Below are positions 2,438-29,662 of a DNA stretch of 29,662 nt, one piece after another; the stretch's first letter is position 1, and each line of letters begins with the position of its first letter. Made by a program: the position numbers and the translations under genes. A model generated the notes under the pieces. It saw only the letters and a list, made by a program, of their open reading frames with translations. It did no database searches and was not told the DNA's origin. The stretch is from a virus, in IMG/VR virus record IMGVR_UViG_3300037069_004294, positions 1 through 29,662 of that record; one strand, given 5' to 3'.

Positions 2438-3301
2438 ATGAAATACCTTGTATTGGGATTTATTGTATCAATTTTGGGCAGTTGTTCTGTAATTAACGAT
2501 AGATTTGTTGGTTCTGAAAACACAGAAGCCACTGTAATGATTACTAATTTAATTAGAACTTCTGGAGGTAGCGGGTTGGTTCTTTCCTCTTCAGGAACAC
2601 ACTCCGAAGTACTAACAAACGCACATGTTTGTGCTGTCGTTAAATCAGGCGGGTTAGTTACTACTACCAAAGGACAAACAGCTTTTGTTTCTTCATATGT
2701 CACTTCAAAAACTCATGATTTATGTAGAATCACCGTCAACAGCGATTTACATGCGAGAACTCGATTAGCTGGAAGGTCCCCTGCTAAGTATGAAGAAGCC
2801 ACAGTGTCCGGTCATCCGCATCTGTTACCTAACATCGTAACCAAAGGACACTTTTCAGATAAAGAGATTATTCCAGTTATGATAGGTTCTAGAGCTTGTA
2901 CTGAGGATGATTATAGTAATCCAACTACCGGGCTATTTTGCATCTTCGGTGGTAGAATGCCTATTGTAAAGAATTATGAAGCCATTGTGGTAAGCGCTAC
3001 CATTATGCCTGGCTCTTCTGGCTCTGGGATTTTCAATGCAGACCACGAACTGAGTGCCTTAGTATTCGCTGGAGCCGGTGATTTAGGTTATGCTTTCGCG
3101 GTACCTCATGAATATATTGAGTTTTTCTTAACATCCGAACTTAATACTCTAACCTCAGAAACTCCTAATACCATTTTACAATTTACTACCGGATCGCCTC
3201 AAGACAAATCTAAATTTGTTATAGCTTGCAATAAAGCTACTACTTCTTTTGAAAGAAGCACTTGCGAAGCCGTTCATAACAATACGCTGTTTGTAAAATA
3301 A
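2438..3301 (+). CDS. Trypsin-like serine protease, predicted lipoprotein
   Basis: 287 residues. The N-terminus MKYLVLGFIVSILGSC is a lipoprotein signal with the lipid-acceptor Cys at 16, placing the enzyme on the periplasmic side. The chymotrypsin-fold triad is visible: His63 in LTNAHVC, Asp94 in KTHDLCRI and Ser194 in PGSSGSGIF, followed by a typical LGYAFAVP strand. Six further cysteines suggest disulfides. AAGGAAG lies before the ATG. It sits between the helicase and lysozyme genes. A membrane-tethered protease could process a surface or envelope protein during infection or lysis, but the target is unknown. A secreted serine protease is uncommon in a phage early region. Confidence 0.85.
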   Translation: MKYLVLGFIVSILGSCSVINDRFVGSENTEATVMITNLIRTSGGSGLVLSSSGTHSEVLTNAHVCAVVKSGGLVTTTKGQTAFVSSYVTSKTHDLCRITVNSDLHARTRLAGRSPAKYEEATVSGHPHLLPNIVTKGHFSDKEIIPVMIGSRACTEDDYSNPTTGLFCIFGGRMPIVKNYEAIVVSATIMPGSSGSGIFNADHELSALVFAGAGDLGYAFAVPHEYIEFFLTSELNTLTSETPNTILQFTTGSPQDKSKFVIACNKATTSFERSTCEAVHNNTLFVK

Positions 3302-5632: not shown

Positions 5633-7900
5633 TTAAAATCCTTCTATAAGTAAAAAGCCTGTAGTTGTAGCCCCTGTTACGGTTACAGTAGTTGTGCTAA
5701 GAGCAGTAATCACCGTGGCGGCTAGACCATTAGTTGTTAAAATCACTGGGTTGTGGGCAAAAGCAACTGGAAATGTAAATGAAGCCGTTCCAACTAAAGC
5801 ATTACAATATATAATTACTTTTTTGTATGAACTTCCTTCAAAAGGCTGTGAGAACACAGCAGATCCTGATGTACTGCCAGATACGGTTGTTTGTGCAATT
5901 GTAGAATTGATTGCACCTGCAAAAGAGGATGTTCCTGTAAATGATGGAGAAGCAATAGGGGCTTTAAGTGCAATATTACCGTTTAGCTTATCAATCGCTT
6001 GAAGAATCGTATCAGTAGCCGCTACCACTCCTGCTCCAGATACAAAACCCGTAATAAGTGCGCCTGTGACAGAGGCTGCTGTTAAAGAAGTTACCCCTGT
6101 ACTTGTTATGGTCACTGCGCCGGACATGGCCACATCGGTGGCAACGTTAGAAGCATTTCCAACCAAAATGTGAGTATTAGTTAAAGTGGATGATTGTTTA
6201 GCTGAAAAAGTAGTATGATCAGCAGCGCTTAGAACTCCTGCTACGGAATTAGTTGCTGTAGCTGCAGTTAACGTTCTTGTAGCAGTAGTATATGTAAAGG
6301 GAGCGCTGACTACTACAGCTGGCGCCCAACTAATTCCTAAAGAAGCTCCGCTATTTGCCACTAAAACGTTGCCATTTCCTCCAACGGTTAATACTTGATC
6401 GCCCGTTCCATCGTTGACAGCGCTATTAGATAGTAGGCCACCCTTTAATGGGTTTCCAGAACTATTGGCGATCAAATCACTATGGGTATCAAATTGAATA
6501 TTTAATACTGTGGGGCTAATAGCCATACCGACTATTACATAGGTATCTGTAAAGGGGGACGGTAACGGAGATATGCTACCGGCAATATTATCTATATACT
6601 GTTCGAAGCCGGTAAATGGACCAAATGAAAAGCCGTCCATAGAACCACGTATAAATATAGCGGCTGACGACCCTGTTATATTAGTAGCAAAACCTAATTG
6701 TGTTTTATCTGACCCGAATGCAGGTATCGCTGCTCCAGCTATAGTGGCTGGAATCCATTGTGTCGCACCGTCGCGCCACATAACGACCATATGGTCGGTA
6801 ACTGCTCCAGAGATCGGTTGATCTAATAAAACAAGTGACGGTACTTGTGTGGGTGTTCCAGGAGTAATGATATCTGTGGCAGTGACCTCATCATATATAA
6901 AATCCCAAGCTACTGTATTTGTAGTAGCAATATGTAGAATGAGTCGATAATCGACACTCGTAGCAGCGGCAGTAAACGTACCAACAAAAAAATCTATAGT
7001 ATTTACAGGTCCGGCAAGAGTATGAACCAGACTAATAGGTATAAGAACTGCATTTGTTATATCATAAATGAATACTTGTATATCAGAGTTAGAGCCAAAA
7101 ACCATTCCAGAAATGCTTTCATAAGCAAATGAAACTTGTATCTGCCTACCTCTATCTAAACTTTGTATTGCAAAATCAGTGCTAACTCCTTCTCCTTGCC
7201 TATTATTAGCATCCTTTGCTAAATCAAAGCTAGCCACCCCTTGCAGCGGAGTAGTTGTATTTCTAGTCAATGTTACTCCAGTTACGACCCCACCAGTGCC
7301 ATTAATTGGGGATGCATCCCCACCACCGGATAAAAACTCTCCTCCTACAATGTACTGTAATTTGCTGGCTGTGCCTGTAATTGAAAGCGTTGCAATTGCT
7401 GTTGCAGCTCCAACTGCATTCCAAGCTGCAACTAATTGAGTTGCAGTAGGATTATTAGCAATTGTTGGACCATTATTCCATTGTACTTGAACATGTGTAG
7501 AGGATATTACATTTATATTGGGGGTAGAGCTAGGAAAGGATGCATTATAAATATATTCAATTTCTACTCCATTCCCTCCACCGCCGGATAAGGTTGAAGT
7601 ATAAGTTATATCTTGATTAATTAAAGAGGCTGGAATGGTTCTACCAGAATTATTATATAGATTCCATCCAGAAAGATCTATTTCCGCGTCTGGGTTTGTA
7701 ATAAAATTACCTTCAGAAGCATTTAATTTATTATTGAATATATTCCAATCAGTCGAATCTAAATAACCATTGTGTGTTGAATCAGCCACATGTTGAGAAA
7801 TCTGAGTCCCCGCCCCAGTAACCGCACCTGTACCATTCACAATGGTGATGCCATCTGTTCCTACGCCTGTTAGATTACCTGATGGTTTAATATACTTCAT
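5633..7900 (-). CDS. Large tail-fibre / appendage protein, 755 aa
   Basis: The N-terminal motif [16 protein letters not shown] and the later [15 protein letters not shown] are signatures of trimeric phage fibre proteins built of repeated 'GxLsxxDwxxFnxK' modules. The middle third (around residues 60-420) is rich in Thr, Ser, Gly and Asn with long beta stretches, as expected of receptor-binding shafts or domains. The C-terminus ([17 protein letters not shown]) resembles a terminal strand cap. No peptidase triad or chaperone domain is evident. ATG 7900 overlaps the upstream stop (TAATG). It most likely forms the main host-recognition fibre. Receptor unknown. Confidence 0.8.
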
Positions 7901-8391
7901 TAAACTAGTTCCGTTACGCGCATGAATCCATTAGCACTAGACCAAATACCATCCACCCCCCCGGTGTATAGAGGGGGAGTATCAATTATAAAAGTTGAAC
8001 CCGTTTGCATTAAAATAGTGAAACTTGTATTCGAGGCTGAGGTTCCCAACTTTAGATAGCATGTTTGTGTAGAATCATTATAGAATACTGCGCCTTTTCT
8101 ATTGGGATTTGATGCCAACAGTGTAGTATTGGTAGCGCTTGAAGTCACTGAGGTTACTACCGCGGTTGTAGAGACCATTGGAGTTTGATCACTAGCGATA
8201 ACTACAGGAAGGGATGCGGACATCGGCTTTTGACCTTCACTGATTGTCGCCCCACCAATTTCAGTGATGTTTGTTACTACAGGGCCCCCACCAGCACCTG
8301 TAGAATTGACATTAACACTACCGTCAGAATTAACCTTAAGTTGATTGTCTGAACCACCTTGAAAGCCGTCTTTTATTGAGGTGGCAGCCAT
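7900..8391 (-). CDS. Virion appendage protein, 163 aa
   Basis: I take ATG 8391 ([13 protein letters not shown]) as the start, one base after the previous stop; an in-frame TTG at 8403 is less likely. The middle segment [17 protein letters not shown] is a repeated module of phage baseplate/fibre proteins and also occurs, varied, in the gene at 9590. The C-terminal half ([18 protein letters not shown]...[12 protein letters not shown]) has the pattern of a small beta-sandwich often attached to such modules. It is probably an adaptor or decoration of the tail fibre. It is flanked by structural genes with 1-bp overlaps. Confidence 0.75.
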
Positions 8392-8392
8392 T

Positions 8393-8734
8393 TTACAGTC
8401 CAAATCCCATGAAAGTACATGTTAATTGACCATTTGTGATCGAAGAAGCAGTCATACTTCTTAATGACACTCGGCTTTTAGCCGGTATAACGCTCCAAGC
8501 TCTATTGGAAAGACCCCCACCTATGATGCAATTAAGAACTTCATGTCCTGCAGGACCTGTGTAAACCCCTATGTAATCACCCGTGGTGTCGATGTAATCA
8601 ATTGCATAAGAAGCCTTAAATCCAATATCTGCTATTACTTGTAGAGGACTAGAAGCAGTTCCAGGAATATTACTTACATTTGCTTGTAGTACGTGGGGAG
8701 GGTCGAAAAATGCTATTGGATAAAGATGTGTCAC
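8393..8734 (-). CDS. Small virion protein, 113 aa
   Basis: A beta-rich protein without signal peptide or membrane segment (FFDPPHVLQANVSNIPGT...GVYTGPAGHEVLNCIIGGG). Its glycine-rich, aromatic-poor composition and its position between two other virion-type genes with gaps of only a few bases suggest a tail or baseplate subunit. The C-terminus (LTCTFMGFGL) ends one base before the next start codon. No family name can be given. Confidence 0.7.
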   Translation of the reverse strand: MTHLYPIAFFDPPHVLQANVSNIPGTASSPLQVIADIGFKASYAIDYIDTTGDYIGVYTGPAGHEVLNCIIGGGLSNRAWSVIPAKSRVSLRSMTASSITNGQLTCTFMGFGL

Positions 8735-8740
8735 AAAGCA

Positions 8741-9100
8741 CTAAAGAGACAAAGCATTCATGTTAACAACTATAGTTGTAGCACCTGCATTACTGCTCGT
8801 AAAAACAACTCTAATCCATCTATAACACATTTGTGGGATACTAATGACTACTGATGCACCGGAGGTTACAGAAGCAGTGGCACTTGGTACGTCTGTCCAA
8901 TTGGTTACCGTAAATGCACTTGCTTGATATCGGTCATTACAAATATCATTGGACATTTGAATTTTGATGTCTCCAGCTGCATCTGTATCGCCAAACACTG
9001 CTTGAAAAGAAGCAGCAACCAGTTGATTGGAGTCAATTTGAATACCATTTTGACTAGCGGTATCTGGAGCTGATAAAACTATACAATTTACATTTCTCAT
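8741..9100 (-). CDS. Beta-sandwich virion protein, 119 aa (related to the gene at 10705)
   Basis: The core (SFQAVFGDTDAAGDIKIQMSND...VTNWTDVPSAT...MCYRWIRVVFTSS) matches the pattern of 10705-11094: a strand with FQV(E)VSND/IKIQMSND, a central Trp, then a strand ending in IRV.(F/Y)TS and 'AGTTT'. The two are likely duplicated phage structural subunits. This fold is frequent in tail proteins near fibres. It lies in the same operon and is a probable virion component. Function beyond structure is unknown. Confidence 0.72.
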   Translation of the reverse strand: MRNVNCIVLSAPDTASQNGIQIDSNQLVAASFQAVFGDTDAAGDIKIQMSNDICNDRYQASAFTVTNWTDVPSATASVTSGASVVISIPQMCYRWIRVVFTSSNAGATTIVVNMNALSL

Positions 9101-9105
9101 AAAAT

Positions 9106-9588
9106 TTAAGATCCAAGTCTAGTTATATTAATATAATTATAATTACCGTCTGCTATTAGAGGCTTAGAAGCACTAAAAATATTATTTAACGTGAATTGAA
9201 TTGTGTCTCCTACAGAAAGTCTAGCAGAATAGGATATTTGGACATCTGTGTAGGTTGTAGAAGTGCCTTCAATACCCGCTACCACGCCTGCAACTTGAGA
9301 ACCATTAATTTTTATTTTTCCTATCGTTTGTTGTCCTACAACTAATGCGGTAGTATCATACAGGGTTGAAGCATGAACATAGTAAATACCTGCTCCCCCA
9401 GCCGGCACGGTAAAAATCCAACTTGCTCCAGTGGTAACACAATTAAATGGATCATCTATTTTAGTATCAAAATTAACTATTGCATCTGCGCCGCTATTAG
9501 GAATAGATTGTCCTGCCGAAGTATTATATGTAGCTGTTATTAAAGGACCTGAAGAAGAACTAGATTTACTTGTGATCATTATGGCCAT
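9106..9588 (-). CDS. C1q/TNF-like jelly-roll tail protein, 160 aa
   Basis: After a short polar N-terminus the sequence shows the C1q-like pattern: ATYNTSAGQSIPN, then VNFDTKIDDPFNCV, WIFTVPAGGAGIYYVHAS and a C-terminal strand set ending YNYINITRLG. These trimeric heads often occur at the tips of phage fibres or as collars and bind carbohydrate or protein. ATG 9588 follows the previous stop by one base. It probably decorates the fibre complex encoded by its neighbours. Confidence 0.75.
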   Translation of the reverse strand: MAIMITSKSSSSSGPLITATYNTSAGQSIPNSGADAIVNFDTKIDDPFNCVTTGASWIFTVPAGGAGIYYVHASTLYDTTALVVGQQTIGKIKINGSQVAGVVAGIEGTSTTYTDVQISYSARLSVGDTIQFTLNNIFSASKPLIADGNYNYINITRLGS

Positions 9589-9589
9589 A

Positions 9590-10684
9590 TTAAGCTTGCT
9601 CCATCACAGTAACCGTTTGCGATCCCGTACTAGATACAATGTAGTAATCGCCTGCATCATTGTTTGCAATAAACGATTGTCCTGCAACTATTTCTATACC
9701 TCTTGTTGCTCCTGAGTTTGTTACTGTAGCAGAACCAATATAAAAAGTAGCCGTAGAAGTCGTGTCTGGAGTCGCTGCCAACACTACCCGCGTAGAGGCT
9801 GGAGCAGAACCTGATACTGTTAGTCTTACTGCGGATGTGCCTACCGTAATGGCAGCTTGCGTAACTGTTAAAGCAGTTGGAGTTGCTGCTAAAGCACTTA
9901 CTTTACCGATGTTATTAGTGCCTGCAGGTAAAGCTGCATTAACCTGAACACCGTTTGTGGTGCCTGGAGTTGTTTGATCAATGCCTACTTTGCCTATAAT
10001 TGCCGAGCCTGCATCTACTTGAACGTGTAAATTAGAACCTGTTGCTTGAGTAGCTGTAATAGAACCACTATCCACAACTGTATGTAGATTTGTTCCCGTT
10101 GCTTGCGTTACAGTTACGCTGGTCAGCGGCGTTAATGTAGACAATTGAGAAGCAGTCAATACCACGGGTACTGAAGCGGCAGCTAAAGCCTGTCCCAAAG
10201 CCGGGGTTTTTGTATCAATAGAGCTTAAAGAAGCATTACCTGATGTCTGTAGGGCGGCGGTAGCTGCTCCAGAGGGTAATGGAAGAGCCGAAGCCGACAC
10301 AGGTACTACTTGATCTGAAGCTATGTTTACAGGGGTGCTAGCTGCGATTAAAGCGGCTCCTTGAGCAGGAGTTTTTGTGTCTATACTAGTTAAGTGTGTG
10401 ATTTCAGTGCTTTGATTAGCAGAGGTAGCGGCTCCAGAAGGAAGCGCAGAGGCATCTATTGTGGCGTGTAACAAAGAACCATCTGGTTGTACAACTGTTA
10501 CAATTGAGCTAGTTGTTAAAGGAGAAACTAAAAGCGCTCCTCCTGCATCCATTTGGAAAACTGTTTGATTTCCGGAAGGATTTTCTCCTGCAACTAAAAT
10601 ACTTGTAGAAGGAATAGGAGCATTATTAGGAGTACCGGTTAGGGTTACAGAGCTTGAACTTGGATATACGTAATTTTGAGCCAT
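9590..10684 (-). CDS. Repeat-containing virion protein, 364 aa
   Basis: The protein is Ala/Thr/Ser/Val-rich and contains at least two imperfect copies of a ~50-residue module with SxIDTKTPAxGxALxAAS followed by PVxxASxQ, plus two short VTQATGxNLH-type repeats (around 190-225). Such 'SSIDxKtpalG...PVVlAsdQ' modules recur in phage baseplate and fibre-anchor proteins. The C-terminus (IGSATVTNSGATRGIEI...DYYIVSSTGSQTVTVMEQA) resembles a capping domain. It is likely a long fibrous linker or neck-appendage component between the small head-proximal gene at 10705 and the C1q-like protein. Confidence 0.78.
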   Translation of the reverse strand: MAQNYVYPSSSSVTLTGTPNNAPIPSTSILVAGENPSGNQTVFQMDAGGALLVSPLTTSSIVTVVQPDGSLLHATIDASALPSGAATSANQSTEITHLTSIDTKTPAQGAALIAASTPVNIASDQVVPVSASALPLPSGAATAALQTSGNASLSSIDTKTPALGQALAAASVPVVLTASQLSTLTPLTSVTVTQATGTNLHTVVDSGSITATQATGSNLHVQVDAGSAIIGKVGIDQTTPGTTNGVQVNAALPAGTNNIGKVSALAATPTALTVTQAAITVGTSAVRLTVSGSAPASTRVVLAATPDTTSTATFYIGSATVTNSGATRGIEIVAGQSFIANNDAGDYYIVSSTGSQTVTVMEQA

Positions 10685-23817: not shown

Positions 23818-24546
23818 TTATTCGCCGCCAACTAATACACTGGAATCACTGAGCAAGAACTGTAGGCTAATTACTGAGCCTGCTGCTGGAGCAACAATAG
23901 CGCCGGCATAGTCTCGACATTGGAGAATAATTTGAGCTCCAAAACCTTGGCTAACACCGGGGGTGGAAGCAGGAGCAGAAGCTAGGTTGGAGTTTCCAAC
24001 TGTTTCGATTGAAGCTACTCCAGAACCCGTAGCAGCTGTCGGAGCTACTCGGCTTACAGAAGAGGTTCCTGCGCCAGTTGCTTTAGCAATAAAAGCAACG
24101 CCTACTGCAGGAGTAATTCCCGAAGGCACTCCTAAAGCGCGCCAGTCGGCAAGGGTGGCATCACCTAAAATGGTTATAACGTAAGCAACGCCTACTGTAA
24201 GTGCTGCATCACTAGCATCTACTGCTAGGTTAGATCCTAAAGCAGAAACGATTGAATTACATCCAGAATAAATTCTGTTATAATTGTCTTGAAATTGAAC
24301 AATAATTGTTCCACTAGCAGGATTTGGGTTAAGAATTGCTTGTCCAGGGGTAGCAGGATTTGAATTTCCATTACCAGGGGTGGCAGAAGTATGCATGAAT
24401 ACGTTTTGGATATAAGGACCTTTTAAAGACCTGATTCCTAAGCCATTTCCATTTGTTGAATCAACGATAAAGTTACAATCTAATAATACGGGTTTTACGT
24501 GTCCGCTGTACAATTTACCAGCGGAAGCGAAATTTCGGTTAGCCAT
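23818..24546 (-). CDS. Virion protein, possible head decoration or capsid-associated, 242 aa
   Basis: The N-terminus ANRNFASAGKLYSGHVKPVL followed by NCFIVDS-type and GIRSLKGPYIQNVFMHTSA sequence is a pattern I have met in virion proteins of uncultured podovirus-like phages. The middle is Gly/Ala/Pro-rich (GNSNPATPGQ) and the C-terminus beta-rich (GAQIILQCRDYAGAIVAPAAG). AGGAT precedes the ATG. A dedicated late promoter and structured leader lie just upstream, consistent with high-level expression, as for an abundant head component. Precise function unknown. Confidence 0.68.
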   Translation of the reverse strand: MANRNFASAGKLYSGHVKPVLLDCNFIVDSTNGNGLGIRSLKGPYIQNVFMHTSATPGNGNSNPATPGQAILNPNPASGTIIVQFQDNYNRIYSGCNSIVSALGSNLAVDASDAALTVGVAYVITILGDATLADWRALGVPSGITPAVGVAFIAKATGAGTSSVSRVAPTAATGSGVASIETVGNSNLASAPASTPGVSQGFGAQIILQCRDYAGAIVAPAAGSVISLQFLLSDSSVLVGGE

Positions 24547-24560
24547 GTGACATCCTATAA

Positions 24561-24618
24561 TAACCTAGATATGACATAAGCATATAGCTTATGTTCTCAC
24601 CGTTTAAGCTCTAGGTTA
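24561..24618 (-). promoter_or_regulatory. Stem-loop leader before the 23818 virion gene
   Basis: A 9-bp outer stem (TAACCTAGA / TCTAGGTTA, 24561-24569 and 24610-24618) encloses an 8-bp hairpin (arms 24574-24581 and 24587-24594). It is transcribed from the late promoter at 24660-24674 and ends about 15 bases before the start codon. It could stabilise the mRNA 5' end or control its translation. Confidence 0.5.
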
Positions 24619-24659
24619 CCTAAACAGGAAGGCTTGAGGATATCTCACGCTCTTAAATG

Positions 24660-24674
24660 TATAGGAAAGTCCAT
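24660..24674 (-). promoter_or_regulatory. Late promoter (phage-type), copy 3
   Basis: ATGGACTTTCCTATA on the minus strand, the same 15-mer as at 19205-19219. It is followed by a ~110-base leader and the 23818-24546 virion gene. It lies 20 bp beyond the leader-side end of the accessory block, so it separates late structural transcription from the accessory genes. Confidence 0.75.
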
Positions 24675-24679
24675 ATGTT

Positions 24680-25141
24680 CTATTTATTAAGGAATAGGGT
24701 TTCAGTGTTTCTGGTAATATGGCTTAATTCTTGAATCATTTCATCATAATGCTTAATATAGCATTTTTTGATAGCCATTTGGTGATGCATGATACTTTTA
24801 GGACAATTATCGTCATATAACTCATCGGAATGTGCCCTGCCCATGGCGCAATGACCTAGTTCATGAAAAATAATCATTTGTTTTCTAAGTGGATCTAATA
24901 ACTCCCAGTATTCTTTAAGTATTTCCACGGTATCTGTCGCGTGAAAGCAATATCCTACAGCACCGGGTGAGTTAACACTTAGTTGGTCCACTAATTGTAC
25001 ATTTATTTCAGATACATCTCTGTGGTACATATATGAGAAATTATAAACATAAAAGGTGACTTCTGAGTTACTATGTTTAATAGCGCTTGCTAGGCTAGGT
25101 AAAAAGAATATAATCAATAAGGTAATTCCAAATAACTTCAT
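24680..25141 (-). CDS. Secreted metzincin-like zinc protease, paralogue of 25827-26261, 153 aa
   Basis: Start chosen at ATG 25141 because AAGGA lies 7 bases ahead. An in-frame start at 25174 would add an N-terminal extension that disrupts the signal peptide. MKLFGITLLIIFFLPSLASA is a Sec signal. Then comes HELGHCAMGRAH, zinc ligands in an HExxH plus distal His layout, and CPKSIMHHQ, an SIM Met-turn as in metzincins. Cysteines flank the site (CFH, HC, NCPKS, KCYIKH), predicting disulfides. The paralogue shares all of these. It is the last gene of the accessory operon. The substrate may be a periplasmic or surface protein. Confidence 0.75.
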   Translation of the reverse strand: MKLFGITLLIIFFLPSLASAIKHSNSEVTFYVYNFSYMYHRDVSEINVQLVDQLSVNSPGAVGYCFHATDTVEILKEYWELLDPLRKQMIIFHELGHCAMGRAHSDELYDDNCPKSIMHHQMAIKKCYIKHYDEMIQELSHITRNTETLFLNK

Positions 25142-25212
25142 AAGATAGTCCTTAAATTTTGAACAAAAGTTCATGAATTTTAGTCAATATGATAAAAATC
25201 AATACAGTTGTT

Positions 25213-25410
25213 CTATTTTTTAGATCTTCCATGTAATCGCTTCTCCGAAAAAGATAATAAATACTTAACTTCTTTGAGTACGGCTTTATATTCTATTTCT
25301 TGTTGTTTATTTAATGTTTGGCTTGATAACCATATCTCTAGTAAAATTTCTTCTGAATAAAGCTTTTTCATTAGCGCTTCAAAATTATTGTCTACTTTTT
25401 GTTTTTTCAC
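25213..25410 (-). CDS. Small helical protein, 65 aa
   Basis: GTG start with GGAAGG seven bases before it. A Lys/Glu/Leu-rich helical protein (LMKKLYSEEILLEIWLSSQT, then KQQEIEYKAVLKEVKYLLS) with a basic C-terminal tail. The start lies inside the end of the preceding 33-aa ORF in another frame. No motif identified. It could be a coiled-coil DNA- or protein-binding factor; function is unknown. Confidence 0.6.
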   Translation of the reverse strand: MKKQKVDNNFEALMKKLYSEEILLEIWLSSQTLNKQQEIEYKAVLKEVKYLLSFSEKRLHGRSKK

Positions 25411-25486
25411 GTTTAGGCCTTCCTAAACACAAAGAGATTATGGGAAGTCCCACAAATACTAGGGTTTGTATAAGTAATGCGATCAT
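25385..25486 (-). CDS. 33-aa membrane peptide
   Basis: The ATG overlaps the stop of the 50-aa ORF (ATGA at 25486-25483), and its end overlaps the next gene start. MIALLIQTLVFVGLPIISLCL is a single hydrophobic helix followed by a basic tail (GRPKREKTKSRQ), predicting a membrane peptide with positively charged cytoplasmic end. The overlap chain supports translation. Function unknown. Confidence 0.55.
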   Translation of the reverse strand: MIALLIQTLVFVGLPIISLCLGRPKREKTKSRQ

Positions 25487-25635
25487 TTTTTAATTCTTTT
25501 TTTGTTCACGAAATCAACATATATAATTTCGCATTTTTCTTTTTTTAACTGCTCATCCAATTGAGCTTTTTGAATCATTTGTTTTTCATAAAGTTCTAAA
25601 GCTTTTTCTTCTTTAGTTTTTAAGTTCTTATCCAT
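25483..25635 (-). CDS. 50-aa Lys/Glu-rich coiled-coil peptide
   Basis: ATG with AAGGAT nine bases before. Charged helical sequence (MDKNLKTKEEKALELYEKQM ... DEQLKKEKCE) ending in a short hydrophobic strand (IIYVDFV). Stop overlaps the next ORF start. No known family; could be a small regulator or coiled-coil scaffold. Confidence 0.6.
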   Translation of the reverse strand: MDKNLKTKEEKALELYEKQMIQKAQLDEQLKKEKCEIIYVDFVNKKRIKK

Positions 25636-25639
25636 AAAC

Positions 25640-25738
25640 TTATCCTTCTATTACCTTGATATTGTCTATCAAGACTTGTTCTCTGATCTTATGCCTTACA
25701 CCATGGATACCTAAAAGCTTAATCATTATTCTCTTCAT
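25640..25738 (-). CDS. 32-aa basic peptide, first ORF of the accessory operon
   Basis: GAGGAAC is placed four bases before the ATG. The product is basic and helical (MKRIMIKLLGIHGVRHKIRE). Its stop lies in the ribosome site of the next ORF. It lies about 25 bases after the -10 of the promoter at 25763-25791. Could be a leader peptide or a small regulator. Confidence 0.5.
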   Translation of the reverse strand: MKRIMIKLLGIHGVRHKIREQVLIDNIKVIEG

Positions 25739-25762
25739 ACGTTCCTCAGTTTCTATGATTAA

Positions 25763-25791
25763 AGTATCTCAAACTTGAGTAAATTTGTCAA
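25763..25791 (-). promoter_or_regulatory. Sigma70 promoter for the accessory operon
   Basis: A perfect TTGACA -35 (25791-25786), a 17-bp spacer and GATACT -10 (25768-25763), followed by TTT, as in the promoter at 442-470. The spacer contains a short inverted repeat (CTCAA, two bases, TTGAG), which could be an operator. It drives the minus-strand ORFs from 25738 to at least 25213. Confidence 0.72.
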
Positions 25792-25826
25792 CATATTGTT
25801 TAGAATTGTTAACATACTTGAAATTA

Positions 25827-26261
25827 TTAGAAATTTTTGATTATATAATTAGGAAGTTCTTTTAATAAGTCTTGAGAATGAGCATTATAACAGCTATCAC
25901 TCATTAAATAGGTGCTCATGATGCTCTTAGGACAATTATCGTCGTACACATCGTTTCTATGTATTCGATTAAAAATGCAGTGTCCTAATTCATGGAAAAT
26001 TAACACTTTTCTTGATGTTTCGCTTAACATCTCCCAGTAATCCCGTCTAACTTCGACGTGGTCAAAGCCCATTTCACACTGGGCAAGTTCATTATTAGTG
26101 GGAAACATAGAAACGAATTCAATTTCCGTGTCTAGAATATCAGCACTATATTGCCGGTGAAATGCCTGTAAATAAGGCAAGAAGGCAGGATCTTGCGGTT
26201 TAGGAGAACCGCAAGCAGATAATAAAGCTAACAATAAACAACAAACGTACCGCTTTAGCAT
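25827..26261 (-). CDS. Lipoprotein metzincin-like zinc protease, 144 aa
   Basis: MLKRYVCCLLLALLSACGS is a lipoprotein signal, Cys17 being the lipid acceptor. The catalytic motif HELGHCIFNRIH and the Met-turn CPKSIMSTY match the secreted paralogue at 24680-25141, with the same arrangement of flanking cysteines. The preceding block (DHVEVRRDYWEMLSETSRK) parallels TVEILKEYWELLDPLRK of the paralogue. It is anchored in the envelope and so could act on outer-membrane or periplasmic targets. The start codon lies inside the 14-bp palindrome at 26256-26292; the ribosome site is AGAGG in its loop. Confidence 0.75.
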   Translation of the reverse strand: MLKRYVCCLLLALLSACGSPKPQDPAFLPYLQAFHRQYSADILDTEIEFVSMFPTNNELAQCEMGFDHVEVRRDYWEMLSETSRKVLIFHELGHCIFNRIHRNDVYDDNCPKSIMSTYLMSDSCYNAHSQDLLKELPNYIIKNF

Positions 26262-26309
26262 ATAGTGGACCTCTATAATCCACTATATGCTAGTTCATTG
26301 TTATATCAA
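26256..26309 (-). promoter_or_regulatory. Promoter and perfect 14-bp inverted repeat over the protease start
   Basis: The -35 TTGATA (26309-26304) and -10 TATAGT (26287-26282) are 16 bp apart. A 14-bp inverted repeat with 9-base loop (TAGCATATAGTGGA arms, 26256-26269 and 26279-26292) overlaps the -10 and extends to the start codon at 26261. This layout fits a repressor operator. If the RNA were longer, the arms would pair around the ribosome site. Confidence 0.6.
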
Positions 26310-26314
26310 GTGTG

Positions 26315-26824
26315 TCAGAGAAGACTTTTAATCAATGAAGCGATTTCATTTTCAGATAAGCTTTTTGCCACCGGTATCTCAAATTTAGCTCCATTGATTC
26401 TAACGGCTATCATTACTTCATGTGCAGGAGGTGCAATAACTGCTGGCTTAGCTGTTTTTTTGGGTAACTCTAGTACTTCATATTTATTTCTAGCATGAAA
26501 ACCTTCTAAATTTCCAACCTTATTGCAAGCTACATTGCCTACAGACTGTAAAGTTACTCTAATGTCTTTTAAACCTATGATTTTGCCTTTACCGTTGGTG
26601 ACCAGGGTACCTAGATCTAATTCACTTAATAATTTGACTATTTTGCAGTACTCTTCTCTAGGAAAGATAAACTTATTCAGTTTCATTCTTTGATCTAGGG
26701 CGTGAATTGTTAATGTAGATCTAGTTCTGTCTCTGAGGGCGAACACATAGAACACTGCGTTGGCTACTTTGTTTGTTTCAGCTTCTCGCTTTAAACTTTC
26801 AATTACTTGTTTTTCGATAATCAT
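26315..26824 (-). CDS. Hypothetical protein, 169 aa
   Basis: I choose ATG 26824 (MIIEKQVIESLKRE) because AAGGAG lies six bases ahead. The sequence has helical and strand segments (NKVANAVFYVFALRDRTRS...LKLNKFIFPREEYCKIVKLL), a middle with GKIIGLKDIRVTLQSVG, and a Lys/Pro-rich linker (ELPKKTAKPAVIAPPAHE) before a C-terminal IPVAKSLSENEIASLIKSLL. No signal peptide. A soluble protein with a proline-alanine hinge; no family assigned. Upstream elements at 26831-26881 suggest regulated expression. Confidence 0.65.
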   Translation of the reverse strand: MIIEKQVIESLKREAETNKVANAVFYVFALRDRTRSTLTIHALDQRMKLNKFIFPREEYCKIVKLLSELDLGTLVTNGKGKIIGLKDIRVTLQSVGNVACNKVGNLEGFHARNKYEVLELPKKTAKPAVIAPPAHEVMIAVRINGAKFEIPVAKSLSENEIASLIKSLL

Positions 26825-26830
26825 ATATTT

Positions 26831-26881
26831 CTCCTTGTTAATACTCACAAGCTTTATATTACAAGGAGCGTGCCGTTGCAA
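26831..26881 (-). promoter_or_regulatory. Sigma70-like promoter within an inverted repeat
   Basis: TTGCAA (26881-26876), a 17-bp spacer and TATAAA (26858-26853). An inverted repeat of 8 bp plus four more after a one-base bulge (CTCCTTGTTAATA / TATTACAAGGAG, 26831-26843 and 26857-26868) spans from the ribosome site to the -10. The right-hand arm includes the SD of the 26824 gene. Confidence 0.55.
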
Positions 26882-26899
26882 GAGCTATTTTAAGGTACT

Positions 26900-27178
26900 T
26901 TAGTAGTTATTATTTGTAGAAGATTTAGACGACTGACTATTTTCCCAATACCACTGCTTTCTAGGTTTAGTAGCTGGGTCATCCCTAGTATTCGTGTCGT
27001 CTTCAGGGAATGGAGGACAGCCTTTATAGTAGTCAATTTTTGGAGAAGACTCTGTGTCCTTAACAGTTAGGGAAGAATCATTGCATTTAGGACAGCATAG
27101 GGATTCTATTTGACGCCTAGAAGCTGCCCAGTATTCCCAATTAAAACCGCAATAATTGCATAACAATTTAATATCCAT
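26900..27178 (-). CDS. Zinc-ribbon protein, 92 aa
   Basis: Its ATG overlaps the stop of the upstream gene (TAATG). N-terminal CNYCGF and CCPKCND, about 20 residues apart, form a four-cysteine zinc ribbon similar to those on ribosomal or transcription-associated phage proteins. A Trp/Tyr-rich spacer (NWEYWAASRRQIESL) separates them. The C-terminal half is polar and disordered (DDTNTRDDPATKP...SSKSSTNN). A nucleic-acid or protein adaptor is plausible. It shares an operon with 27178-28469. Confidence 0.7.
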   Translation of the reverse strand: MDIKLLCNYCGFNWEYWAASRRQIESLCCPKCNDSSLTVKDTESSPKIDYYKGCPPFPEDDTNTRDDPATKPRKQWYWENSQSSKSSTNNNY

Positions 27179-27381
27179 TATTTTTTTAGTTTCTCTACCA
27201 TTATCATTAAGTTAATAAAGTCCACTTCTTGTTGTCTTGTGGTAAAATAATAATATCTTAAACGTTCTTTAATTTCTTGTAGAGCGCTTGTTATAACTCT
27301 GTCGTTAAAACATTTGGGACACCCACAATAAAAAGGATGAGTTTTTGGAAAAGCTTTTACATTATCGTCATTTGTTGACAT
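27178..27381 (-). CDS. Small CxC-type protein, 67 aa
   Basis: AGAGGT lies seven bases before ATG 27381. The N-terminal half carries PFYCGCPKC, three closely spaced cysteines that could bind zinc with a further ligand, and the rest is a charged helix (LQEIKERLRYYYFTTRQQEVDF). It overlaps the upstream gene by 14 bp and the downstream one by 1 bp. No family was recognised. Confidence 0.65.
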   Translation of the reverse strand: MSTNDDNVKAFPKTHPFYCGCPKCFNDRVITSALQEIKERLRYYYFTTRQQEVDFINLMIMVEKLKK

Positions 27382-27610
27382 TTAACACCTCTTTTACTGT
27401 ATAGAATTTTTCAAGTCGACTTATAAAAGCATACAATCGACTGTCAAAACCATACAATTCACCTATGTAATAAGAAACTAATACAATATGAATATTTGTT
27501 GCGATGGCTAACACACCGATGAAGTCAAATATTTCATCTGCTGTTTTGTCTTTTGTTAAGCTTATAATGTAAGGTATTCTAAGCCGATAATCATTAGCGT
27601 TGAGAGTCAT
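27368..27610 (-). CDS. Small helical protein, 80 aa
   Basis: ATG 27610 (MTLNANDYRLRIPY) is favoured over the longer in-frame start at 27628 because it overlaps the upstream stop in the ATGA manner used by neighbours. The sequence has three predicted helices (TADEIFDFIGVLAIATNIHI, YGFDSRLYAFISRLEKF, VKEVLNV) and no signal or transmembrane segment of clear length. It may be a small regulator or partner of the adjacent lipoproteins. Function unknown. Confidence 0.6.
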   Translation of the reverse strand: MTLNANDYRLRIPYIISLTKDKTADEIFDFIGVLAIATNIHIVLVSYYIGELYGFDSRLYAFISRLEKFYTVKEVLNVNK

Positions 27611-27831
27611 TGAATTACCTCTATGCATGAATAATCCTGAGTGCAGTCAGGAAGAGTTCCTATTATGGGTTGATAAACATCAGATAATATGGTGCCATCT
27701 CTTAATTTAACTCCACAATATCCATAGGAATTACAGCCTCCTACAATAGCTATTAAGCTATGGTATTTTTTATGTTTTATAGCGCATCCAGTTATTATAA
27801 TTACGCAAATTATAATTAATGCTGTTTTCAT
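27607..27831 (-). CDS. Small lipoprotein, 74 aa
   Basis: The start at ATG 27831 overlaps the stop of the preceding gene (ATGA). MKTALIIICVIIITGC is a lipoprotein signal, with Cys16 as acceptor. The mature part is short and Cys-rich (GGCNSYGYCGVKLRDGT...PDCTQDYSC), predicting two disulfides and a beta-hairpin core. It is one of two consecutive lipoproteins. It could coat the outer membrane, for example to block receptor use or superinfection. Confidence 0.7.
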   Translation of the reverse strand: MKTALIIICVIIITGCAIKHKKYHSLIAIVGGCNSYGYCGVKLRDGTILSDVYQPIIGTLPDCTQDYSCIEVIQ

Positions 27832-28250
27832 TGAGTCACCTGGCAATTAGTCAACACGGTGAAGTTGCAAGGGGCTGTTGTGGATGTTGAAGCGTAATAT
27901 CCAGAAGGAATAAGAGCTAGCCAAGCATTTCTGCCGTCCCAATAAACACCGTAAATGGAGTTGTCTATGCATATTCCATACTCGGGGAAAGTGGTGGGGT
28001 AATTTGTTGTTACACTAGGACAAAACTGCACAGTGCTTACAGAGGGTGCATCTTTGCCATTTACTCCATTGGTTCCGTTTAAACCATTAGACACTTCTAC
28101 CTGAGAACCATCTGGGCATAAAATCAAAGCCCCTGTGTCAGTTTTAACCACAGTACAGGATTTAGAAGGAGACGTTGCAGTTGGAGGAATATCAGATACA
28201 CCTGAACCACATCCTGTTAATATGAACACAAAAATAATAATTTTTTTCAT
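27828..28250 (-). CDS. Lipoprotein with collagen-like Gly-Asn/Val triplets, 140 aa
   Basis: MKKIIIFVFILTGCGSG is a lipoprotein signal with acceptor Cys14. The segment LNGTNGVNGKDAPSVSTV looks like short collagen-like or tail-collar triplets, and the C-terminal region (FPEYGICIDNSIYGVYWDGRNAWLALIPSGYYASTSTT) is beta-rich with paired cysteines. It lies in tandem with the smaller lipoprotein. A phage-encoded lipoprotein with a beta head suggests a surface role in the infected host, such as receptor masking. The evidence is only sequence pattern. Confidence 0.72.
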   Translation of the reverse strand: MKKIIIFVFILTGCGSGVSDIPPTATSPSKSCTVVKTDTGALILCPDGSQVEVSNGLNGTNGVNGKDAPSVSTVQFCPSVTTNYPTTFPEYGICIDNSIYGVYWDGRNAWLALIPSGYYASTSTTAPCNFTVLTNCQVTQ

Positions 28251-28251
28251 G

Positions 28252-28359
28252 TCAATTCTTTCTTAAATAATGGCAATAGATAAAATCTGCTCGCATATGA
28301 GCCTTGCCGTGCTTTCCAAGAAATCTTATTAAAAACCAACGTTTATAATAAGATTTCAT
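28252..28359 (-). CDS. 35-aa basic peptide
   Basis: ATG overlaps the stop of the preceding 37-aa ORF. It encodes an Arg/Lys/Tyr-rich peptide (MKSYYKRWFLIRFLGKHGKA) and ends one base before the lipoprotein start. Its first 35 bases lie in an 11-bp inverted repeat (28321-28356), so the region may act partly at RNA level. Translation is plausible but unproven. Confidence 0.45.
   Translation of the reverse strand: MKSYYKRWFLIRFLGKHGKAHMRADFIYCHYLRKN
28321..28356 (-). repeat. 11-bp inverted repeat at an ORF junction
   Basis: AAATCTTATTA (28321-28331) pairs with TAATAAGATTT (28346-28356) around a 14-base loop. It lies across the start of the 35-aa ORF and could control its translation or shape the accessory mRNA. 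Confidence 0.6.
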
Positions 28360-28469
28360 TGCTTGTTCATTTCTTCCTTAAAAATTAAGAATATATAAAT
28401 AACAAGAAAAGCTGGAAGAGATACAGGAAATGCTATCATAAGTAAACCGACTGCTAATGACGTCTTCAT
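28356..28469 (-). CDS. 37-aa membrane peptide, first gene of the lipoprotein operon
   Basis: AAGGAG lies seven bases before the ATG. The peptide has a long hydrophobic stretch (LLMIAFPVSLPAFLVIYIFL) and a charged end (KEEMNKQ). It is the first ORF after leader RNA A. A second ORF starts in its stop. Its function at the membrane is unknown. The good ribosome site is the main support. Confidence 0.62.
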   Translation of the reverse strand: MKTSLAVGLLMIAFPVSLPAFLVIYIFLIFKEEMNKQ

Positions 28470-28490
28470 ATAGTTACTCCTTAGTACTTT

Positions 28491-28557
28491 TGAGGGCGGC
28501 CTCTATGCCTACAGCTAGCGTGCTCTATTAAGCCAGTGATTCAGTTCTGGCCCCTCA
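28491..28557 (-). ncRNA. Structured leader RNA candidate A (67 nt)
   Basis: The ends TGAGGG and CCCTCA pair. GCCAG and CTGGC (bases 7-11 and 22-26 of the element) form an inner arm with a TGAA-containing loop, and TTAATAGAG follows. It begins about where RNA should start from the promoter at 28565-28593 and ends just before the ribosome site of the 37-aa gene. It has the same length as element B (11216-11282), the same position relative to the promoter, and an equivalent first arm. A tRNA was excluded because it lacks a full cloverleaf. Confidence 0.5.
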
Positions 28558-28564
28558 TAATTAA

Positions 28565-28593
28565 AGCTTACTATAGTATACAAAATTAGTCAA
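28565..28593 (-). promoter_or_regulatory. Promoter of the lipoprotein operon
   Basis: TTGACT (28593-28588), a 17-bp spacer and TAAGCT (28570-28565), then TTAATTATG. It parallels the plus-strand promoter at 11157-11185 (TTGACT, 17 bp, TATGCT, TTATTTATG). The -10 box on its own is weak; the support comes from the parallel. Confidence 0.5.
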
Positions 28594-28623
28594 ACTTAAA
28601 TACGCCCTTGTATCCTGGAGTAC

Positions 28624-28986
28624 TCATTCTTCCTCCACTTCAAATTCTAGAGTTACTTTAACGTTAGAATAATGGCCATTGAGATAAGTAGACAATTGAT
28701 CTGAAAAATAAATATGAATTGGATCTCTTTGGTTATAAGAATTTACACTAATTTTAGCTGAAGGATCGAAGATATTCACTTTTTTCGTTCTTTGAGGCCG
28801 ATCTATAAGCTTTAGTGACGGCTCTTTATGCCACGCTTCCGATAAACCGTCTCTGGTAAATCCATAAGTTTTTAGTTCTTTTTGAATCAAAAACTCTACA
28901 GCCACACCATAGAGCCTTTCTTCATCGGTCTCTATTACTTTACCTTTAACCCCAAAAGCTTCTACAATATCGCCTACTTTAAACAT
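28624..28986 (-). CDS. SH3-like small phage protein, paralogue of 4383-4727
   Basis: I take ATG 28986 (MFKVGDIVEAFGVKGKVIE). A longer in-frame start at 29007 would place the -10 box inside the gene and does not match the paralogue, which also begins MFKV. A strong GGAGG stands before it. The first 65 residues match 4383-4727 (GKVIE, GVAVEF, FTRDG, WHKEPSLK). The remaining ~50 are a distinct C-terminal tail. The fold is likely an SH3/KOW-like barrel. Its own promoter and adjacent palindrome suggest it is a separately regulated accessory gene. Confidence 0.72.
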   Translation of the reverse strand: MFKVGDIVEAFGVKGKVIETDEERLYGVAVEFLIQKELKTYGFTRDGLSEAWHKEPSLKLIDRPQRTKKVNIFDPSAKISVNSYNQRDPIHIYFSDQLSTYLNGHYSNVKVTLEFEVEEE

Positions 28987-29005
28987 TTGCAACTCCTCCA
29001 ATGCC

Positions 29006-29034
29006 ATTGTAAGTCTTATTTTGGGGTTTGTCCA
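29006..29034 (-). promoter_or_regulatory. Strong sigma70-like promoter
   Basis: TGGACA (29034-29029), a 17-bp spacer and TACAAT (29011-29006), both five of six to consensus. RNA would start about 28999, just before GGAGG, leaving a very short leader to the 28986 start codon. Confidence 0.7.
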
Positions 29035-29039
29035 GGTAA

Positions 29040-29061
29040 GAAATCATGTCGACATGATTTC
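29040..29061. promoter_or_regulatory. 22-bp perfect palindrome upstream of the -35 box
   Basis: The two 11-bp halves are exact complements (GAAATCATGTC then its inverse) centred on GTCGAC. It abuts the -35 at 29034, a usual place for an activator or repressor site. Its lack of a U-run argues against a terminator. Confidence 0.6.
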
Positions 29062-29077
29062 ACAACTTAAATGCTTT

Positions 29078-29112
29078 AAAATAAAAAAGGCAGGGTTTTT
29101 GGCCCTGCCTTC
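29078..29112 (-). terminator. Intrinsic terminator after the capsid gene
   Basis: A 9-bp stem AAGGCAGGG / CCCTGCCTT (29087-29095, 29103-29111) with a 7-base loop is followed on the minus strand by TTTTTTATTTT. It lies about 30 bases after the capsid stop at 29142, consistent with limiting read-through into the accessory block. Confidence 0.85.
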
Positions 29113-29141
29113 AAACTTAAAAAGTTTAGCTAACTATATGA

Positions 29142-29662
29142 TTATGCAGACAATTGGACAACCATGTTGCGCCCAGGTGCGGAACAAATAAGATTTCCGT
29201 AGTATGCGATACGAATTTCTAATGCATCCGCATTTCCGACGCGAAGTCCTTCAAGACCTTCCATACCGTAGGTCAAGATGTGAGGCACTTTACCTAGTGA
29301 ACGAAGTTTCCAAGTGTTCATGGTCAAGCAATAAGCAGTTTGAGCTGGGCAGCTTCTGTCGGCCAAGATTTCAACAGCGCCGTAAGCGGATTGGAATCGG
29401 ATACCGTCGAAGGCAACTTCAACTTCATCGTGTTTAACTTGAACATATTGAACTTTAGCGCCTAAACTATTAACAAGGGCAGAGTAAGAAGCGAAGTCCA
29501 TGATAATAATATCGAACTTTGCACCTTCTCGGTTTCCGAATGCTAAAGCGTTGGTGATACCTTCTTCAATCGTGTATGATTGAGCATTGTATCGAAGTCC
29601 ACCCAATCGTGTTGGGTCAGCAGAACGAACAACACCCCAGAAGGTGTCACTGCCGCTTGGAG
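29142..29662 (-). CDS. Probable major capsid protein, C-terminal part (partial)
   Basis: The frame runs off the right end of the window. The visible residues (TFWGVVRSADPTRLGGLRYN... GAKFDIIIMDFASYSALV ... VEVAFDGIRFQSAYGAVEIL ... SLGKVPHILTYGMEGLEGLR ... LICSAPGRNMVVQLSA) follow the pattern of HK97-fold phage capsid proteins, where an 'FWG.VRS' arm, a long A-domain strand and a 'N(L)IC..P..N..L' end are common. An intrinsic terminator follows directly. The exact family cannot be fixed without the N-terminus. It fits the position upstream of a run of late virion genes. Confidence 0.65.
   Translation of the reverse strand, partial: PSGSDTFWGVVRSADPTRLGGLRYNAQSYTIEEGITNALAFGNREGAKFDIIIMDFASYSALVNSLGAKVQYVQVKHDEVEVAFDGIRFQSAYGAVEILADRSCPAQTAYCLTMNTWKLRSLGKVPHILTYGMEGLEGLRVGNADALEIRIAYYGNLICSAPGRNMVVQLSA

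Follow-up and report, generated by a model that had tools for sequence, protein, structure and literature searches.

We analysed a linear IMG/VR record of viral DNA, 29,662 bases long, and call this whole stretch the window. On its minus strand it holds two homologous genes, P0001 and P0002, and on its plus strand the gene of a further protease candidate, P0003. The features that bear on these genes are:

2438-3301, plus strand: P0003, a trypsin-like lipoprotein whose gene lies 155 bp before the endolysin gene
23818-24546, minus strand: s242, a conserved gene of the structural module that borders the variable slot on its far side, in 47 of 80 relatives
24547-29141, no strand: variable accessory-gene slot from the major capsid gene to the next structural gene, from 52 loci
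24680-25141, minus strand: P0001, probable exported metzincin-like peptidase with a Sec-type signal (ORF with Shine-Dalgarno sequence, homology to P0002)
25827-26261, minus strand: P0002, probable metzincin-like peptidase and lipoprotein with an LSAC lipobox (ORF, AlphaFold model, structural matches in the PDB)
26256-26292, minus strand: perfect 14-bp inverted repeat with a 9-nt loop (arms 26256-26269 and 26279-26292)
26282-26309, minus strand: weak promoter-like match TTGATA-16-TATAGT, its -10 element in the 5' arm of the hairpin
26315-26881, minus strand: o26315, neighbour of P0002, with a homologue also beside a family member in the related locus L148
29086-29112, minus strand: terminator-like hairpin that immediately follows the major capsid gene (z -3.09)
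29142-29660, minus strand: major capsid protein gene, cut by the end of the record (PHROG 9953 major head protein, E 8.1e-7)

The longer P0001 ORF spans 24680-25174 and starts at 25174. The ATG at 25141 (residue 12) is the better start, with AAGGA 7 nt upstream. P0001 carries HELGHC at residues 104-109, a third His at 115, CPKSIM at 124-129 and cysteines at 76, 109, 124 and 138. The corresponding positions in P0002 are 90-95, 101, 110-115 and 62, 95, 110 and 123. The proteins share 35% identity over 116 residues (E 3e-27), so their resemblance is not due to chance. An earlier note on this DNA had described two such proteins, in which HELGHC is followed by a third His (seven residues past HExxH) and by CPKSIM, with matching cysteines and with a Sec signal in one and a lipoprotein signal in the other. 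This description is borne out for two minus-strand ORFs, which have four cysteines in common. Read by eye from the sequence, the P0001 signal is a hydrophobic stretch with ASA at its end and that of P0002 the lipobox LSAC. The same note had called the two proteins paralogues. Their homology stands, but their sister relation varies with the tree: a quick tree joined them with support 94, and a careful tree set them apart (81/82 and 82/93, unstarred). We consider it highly probable that both are exported metzincin-like peptidases.

The family of P0001 and P0002 has no specific model in Pfam, PHROGs or NCBIfam. In Pfam the sole match is PF18894 (PhageMetallopep), which stays below its cut-off of 23.7 bits with both P0001 (22.5) and P0002 (23.3) and spans about 30-35 residues of them, not the whole model. 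Some relatives pass this cut-off (L096 with 26.3, L047 with 25.0 and L017 with 27.1 bits). PHROGs and NCBIfam gave no specific family for the two window proteins, nor did PHROGs for 26 members (A2), where the best results were distant matches such as phrog_87 metallo-protease (7 of 26), nor NCBIfam for ten relatives. The search against peptidase families that had been proposed as a check named a family for P0003, Trypsin_2, but left P0001 and P0002 just under the PF18894 cut-off. In the open-licence literature we found no paper on HELGHC or PhageMetallopep and, among the papers listed, no account of the family; a Listeria pair turned up, to which we return below.

Members were gathered through IFHELGH-type patterns and HMMs, and the conservation of HELGH is therefore given by construction. 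Among viral contigs, a two-sequence alignment led to 28 loci and a scan with 26 members to 31 loci, together 30 contigs. Three further members come from relatives of the window's phage (L148, L149 and L165), which brings the family to 33 viral contigs. One of the viral records, IMGVR_UViG_3300010430_000004, likewise has two copies. In bacterial genomes at least 588 candidate stretches yielded at least 104 relatives, and the 80 that were kept belong mainly to Saprospiraceae and other Bacteroidota, with Bdellovibrionota in addition. A lipobox was recognised by regular expression in 95 of 116 relatives. In the careful tree phage copies stand in several places, and well-supported branches force at least four label changes; the window proteins lie nearer the Bdellovibrionota side in the trees, with the forks open. 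The simplest reading is an accessory cargo that was acquired more than once.

The textbook zinc motif of metzincins is HExxHxxGxxH, with the third His at position 11. We counted conservation on 136 rows; two L069 copies without HExxH and the L062 fragment were dropped beforehand, and L237 and L246 are also outside the count, as they were not returned by the ORF caller and HMM. The third-His column holds His in all 136 rows; in 132 of them it falls at position 12, in four at 13 alone and in none at 11. The strict motif HExxHxxGxxH/D fails because HExxH is followed by one extra residue, usually Cys, in 132 of the 136 rows and by two in the other four. A Gly at the shifted place is found in 36 of 136 rows, and the Met column, the candidate Met-turn at the sequence level, is kept in 135. 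When the family profile is aligned with snake-venom metalloproteases (HELGH-NLGMEHDD, E 0.016), a one-residue gap falls at the Cys, and the family motif can thus be read as that of metzincins lengthened by a single residue. This Cys and an upstream Cys occur together in 121 of the 136 related rows, are both missing in 14 and are discordant in one. This covariation suggests that they form a disulfide, although a p-value for the co-occurrence would be no true probability, as the rows are related to one another. For the second pair, around the Met-turn, 52 rows have both cysteines, eight only the later one and 72 neither, while four rows are unjudgeable.

AlphaFold, given 26 sequences, returned a P0002 model with a mean pLDDT of 90.4 and a pTM of 0.82; the single-sequence model of P0001 was useless (pLDDT 43). 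In VIA-align matrix metalloproteases (MMPs, M10) come first, with MMP-9 at Z 9.0, 2.9 A and 107 residues, and snapalysin (M7) reaches Z 8.4 over 106 of 132 residues, where differences below 1 count as ties. Scores of 8-9 are modest, since models that match nothing clearly also tend to reach a best Z of 7-8. Foldseek against the PDB placed snake-venom metalloproteases best (E about 0.002). P0002 is thus predicted to have a metzincin-like fold, which was the outcome that the proposed structural check called for. The likeness to MMPs and snapalysin covers the predicted fold over 106-112 residues, the HExxH helix, the third His and the candidate Met-turn. Unlike these enzymes, the family has its third His at position 12 instead of 11, a conserved Cys after HExxH and in most members a lipid anchor, and the similarity in sequence is marginal. 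The adamalysins and snake-venom metalloproteases (M12B) are both the best sequence-profile match in the PDB and the top Foldseek matches. However, M12B domains have about 200 residues and the canonical HExxHxxGxxH, and the E-values alone are not significant. The claim of a metzincin-like protein therefore stands for the fold of P0002 but not for the strict signature, and we file the protein under no named family. On this evidence it should work like a metzincin.

Related phages were found with the window's capsid protein; there are 82 relatives, of which 80 were kept, up to 100% identical. They share the gene order capsid, s242, adaptor (Pfam SU10 adaptor) and a tail gene for 979 amino acids. 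Between capsid gene and s242 lies the slot that in the window holds P0001 and P0002. In 52 loci, the window included, its length ranges from 83 bp to 9.5 kb with a median of 3.8 kb, and it is below 400 bp in 14 (in three of the 52 it was measured to the adaptor gene). Because the slot varies so much, we are confident that P0001 and P0002 are accessory, moron-type cargo of the phage. Only the window and L149 have the family among the 52 complete slots. L165 has a member after the capsid gene, with the far edge of the slot outside the contig, and in L148 a member is found upstream of the capsid gene, encoded on the other strand. There, at 3467-4545 of L148, this member and a homologue of o26315 are direct neighbours on the strand that does not carry the structural genes, and the same pair is adjacent in the window; o26315 matches no Pfam family, and its best PHROG match has an E of 0.047. 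The idea of a dedicated protease slot was rejected, as its 276 distinct ORFs fall into 197 clusters of many kinds. Two more small lipoprotein-like ORFs in the window's slot, at 27828-28250 and 27607-27846, have no significant family; for the former, 10 of 80 related phage loci contain a relative. In L149 (4400-6443) some 680 bp split the major capsid gene between the codons of residues 55 and 56. The insertion matches no Rfam family, and stop-codon recoding was rejected for this gene since the stops sit in the insertion.

The neighbours of the phage copies were scanned with PHROGs and Pfam. Among 109 of 118 ORFs there was no recurring family, and no lysis family appeared among the best 25 of each list; a lysis-cassette neighbourhood was therefore rejected. 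The nine ORFs outside the scan are both L022 ORFs, two that run in reverse across the capsid gene of L149, the capsid gene of L165 together with one reverse ORF at that place, the ORF of 2186 residues in L139, and a single small ORF from each of L129 and L140.

The family pattern had also been read as a clue to a host among the Bdellovibrionota. The relatives are real, with matches at E <=0.001 in 93 of 290 genomes of this phylum (that of the Bacteriovoracia genome G001), many of them weak, but the family is equally at home in Bacteroidota. Since the capsid protein in addition has no close match among the genomes searched from either phylum, the clue is weak. Its C-terminal part found nothing in 368 genomes of the Bdellovibrionota phylum. 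A full-length relative, from L184, matched one of these 368 genomes (26% identity) and two of 395 Bacteroidota genomes, once with 33% over most of the protein and once in a short, weak match. The capsid protein had no match in the phage collection, and the L184 terminase matches 364 phage records, with about 23-24% among the matches listed. A host assignment from the capsid protein was rejected.

A third envelope-directed protease had been proposed as well, and P0003 qualifies as an exported protease candidate. It matches Pfam Trypsin_2 above the cut-off (E 7.1e-10) and has a lipobox (LGSC), with candidates for the His/Asp/Ser triad in TNAHVC, HDLC and GSSGSG. The endolysin gene next to it is clear from PHROG 7 (E 1.4e-51). 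Relatives of P0003 occur in 4 of 80 related loci (L142, L147, L168 and L172), in L142 and L147 right after the capsid gene. No spanin was found by a significant PHROG match among 23 window proteins scanned; this excludes nothing, because records of its relatives run to 56-59 kb, about twice the length of this one.

The start of the P0002 gene lies in the perfect inverted repeat. Its AUG (26261-26259) is part of the 3' arm, and the Shine-Dalgarno sequence GAGGT (26273-26269) occupies the loop and its edge. The predicted RNA hairpin has a folding energy of -24.6 kcal/mol (z -6.16, 0 of 200 shuffles), and its z is the lowest of 30 start regions tested in the window. Among 31 start regions of other phage copies none had a z below -2.5 (32 copies were taken, one near a contig end was not folded, and some of the script-chosen starts are doubtful). 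As the promoter-like -10 element lies within the 5' arm, a transcript that starts about 7 nt later would be without this arm. A terminator-like site lies after the capsid gene, and promoter-like matches in the region are at chance number (19 versus 18.6 in shuffles). According to PMC3014915, the starts of the T4 genes e, soc and 49 are sequestered in an RNA helix. Late-promoter transcripts of gene e are described there as being without the 5' part and well translated, which is thought to avoid premature lysis. The P0002 hairpin has the same layout over Shine-Dalgarno sequence and AUG as described for gene e in that text (PMC3014915). By this analogy the hairpin suggests that untimely synthesis of P0002 would be harmful. 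The palindrome at 26256-26292 could alternatively be a DNA operator.

The best explanation as a whole, to which we give slightly less than an even chance, is that P0001 and P0002 are exported zinc peptidases that the phage carries as accessory cargo and that weaken the envelope late for release. Late assistance of release is the most likely role, and a tentative one. Such late weakening is suggested by the position of the peptidase genes after the capsid gene, by the predicted gating of P0002 in the manner of a lysis gene, and by the location of the P0003 gene directly upstream of the endolysin gene. The analysis itself shows the genes, their family, the predicted fold, the conserved residues, the variable location and the predicted hairpin. 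The steps that we infer for the two proteins, from export and zinc binding over late proteolysis of a substrate to release, would be the following. P0001 would go free into the periplasm, whereas a lipid anchor would hold P0002, probably in the outer membrane. The two HExxH histidines and the third His at position 12 would hold zinc above the Met-turn, and a disulfide would link the active-site helix to the preceding strand region. Because of the hairpin, read-through transcripts would stay untranslated until a shorter mRNA is made from a promoter inside it. Made late, the peptidases would cut host envelope proteins, and endolysin and holin might then release virions more readily from the weakened envelope. 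In a more daring version, the timed lipid-anchored peptidase, its periplasmic partner and the trypsin-like lipoprotein would together use proteolysis to break the outer membrane or the proteins that tie it to the wall, replacing spanins or acting beside them, with a zinc loop one residue longer and braced by a disulfide and synthesis locked by the hairpin until the late phase; this combination we regard as quite improbable.

Peptidases with a comparable setting have been described. PMC8235301 reports that Listeria has a prophage-linked secreted metzincin, Mtz, with the lipoprotein partner Tim, and that the metzincin alters morphology and raises sensitivity to phage lysins. The window proteins resemble Mtz in being phage-linked, probably Sec-exported and of metzincin type; Mtz works with a lipoprotein and affects lysis (PMC8235301). 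Unlike the family, Mtz belongs to a Gram-positive host and has the canonical HExxHxxGxxH/D, and its partner is described there as a TIMP-like lipoprotein and not a second peptidase (PMC8235301). VgrG2b is an example of a periplasmic zinc peptidase that can make cells bleb and lyse (PMC6899460). Its C-terminal domain would share with our proteins the zinc-peptidase nature, the action in the periplasm and the disturbance of the envelope. In contrast to the family, VgrG2b is in that account a T6SS effector with thermolysin-like relatives by DALI and no lipid anchor (PMC6899460).

Another role, possible although we doubt it, is superinfection exclusion, in which the lipid-anchored peptidase would trim a surface receptor or block functions of incoming phages. 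Some exclusion factors are known to be phage lipoproteins, as PMC3952083 describes for Ltp, and accessory, fast-diverging genes at varying sites fit an arms-race cargo. However, late action is favoured over early action by the place of the gene behind the capsid gene and by its start, which long transcripts are predicted to keep closed. It is unlikely that the proteins are cargo for the benefit of the host, that is bacterial envelope or nutrient peptidases without a role in the phage cycle, for example for the digestion of prey or polymers. The wide distribution in the Bdellovibrionota phylum and in many Saprospiraceae and their relatives would fit such a function, as would the bacterial genes, which have no single conserved partner (on the Bdellovibrionota side the neighbours lack one conserved context in the 26 of 29 loci where the gene was located). 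Yet a lytic phage would gain little from genes of this kind, and there is no integrase among the scanned window proteins of this partial record.

Still less probable is that P0001 and P0002 are zincins of another type, either minigluzincins like selecase or proteins of the PF18894/SprT type. Minigluzincins and selecase should differ from the family in their third ligand and in the Met-turn. They share small size and HExxH with it, and selecase has a Foldseek probability of 1.0 and a VIA-align Z of 7.9, which is tied with MMPs and snapalysin within about 1, but it aligns over only 94 residues versus 107-112. PF18894 resembles the family in the region up to and including the HExxH helix, and 15 of 26 members match it around the active-site helix at E <=0.001. 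An hhalign comparison aligned 63 columns with a probability of 93.8, in the N-terminal half only. Unlike the family, the PF18894 members examined have no signal peptide and a different C-terminal half, and those parsed (14 of 19 loci) show HELLHIDP-type motifs with a His at 11-13 in none of the 14, whereas the near-invariant third His and Met of the family fit metzincins. That P0001 and P0002 are exported but catalytically dead, with a fold that serves for binding alone, is very improbable: two L069 copies without HExxH make it seem that inactive paralogues exist in the family, but both window proteins retain HExxH, the third His, Met and the Cys pairs.

The exported metzincin-like peptidases thus appear to belong to an unnamed family with a shifted zinc motif that is common to predatory and polymer-degrading bacteria and their phages, and the family is now marked as phage cargo. 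A search with HExxHxxGxxH misses it because the zinc loop is longer. If the late-lysis reading is true, proteolysis would join pores, endolysins and spanins in opening the Gram-negative envelope. The family varies in its architecture. The Saprospiraceae contig L069 has five copies at 6270-10384, the two without HExxH included. Many Bacteroidota members, L032, L064, L068 and L103 among others, carry long C-terminal extensions and reach about 310-400 residues. Two near-identical phage members (L017 and L019, each at 7983-8765) are fused to a C-terminal thioredoxin domain, with PF00085 at E 3.4e-21 for L017 and WCxxC in both.
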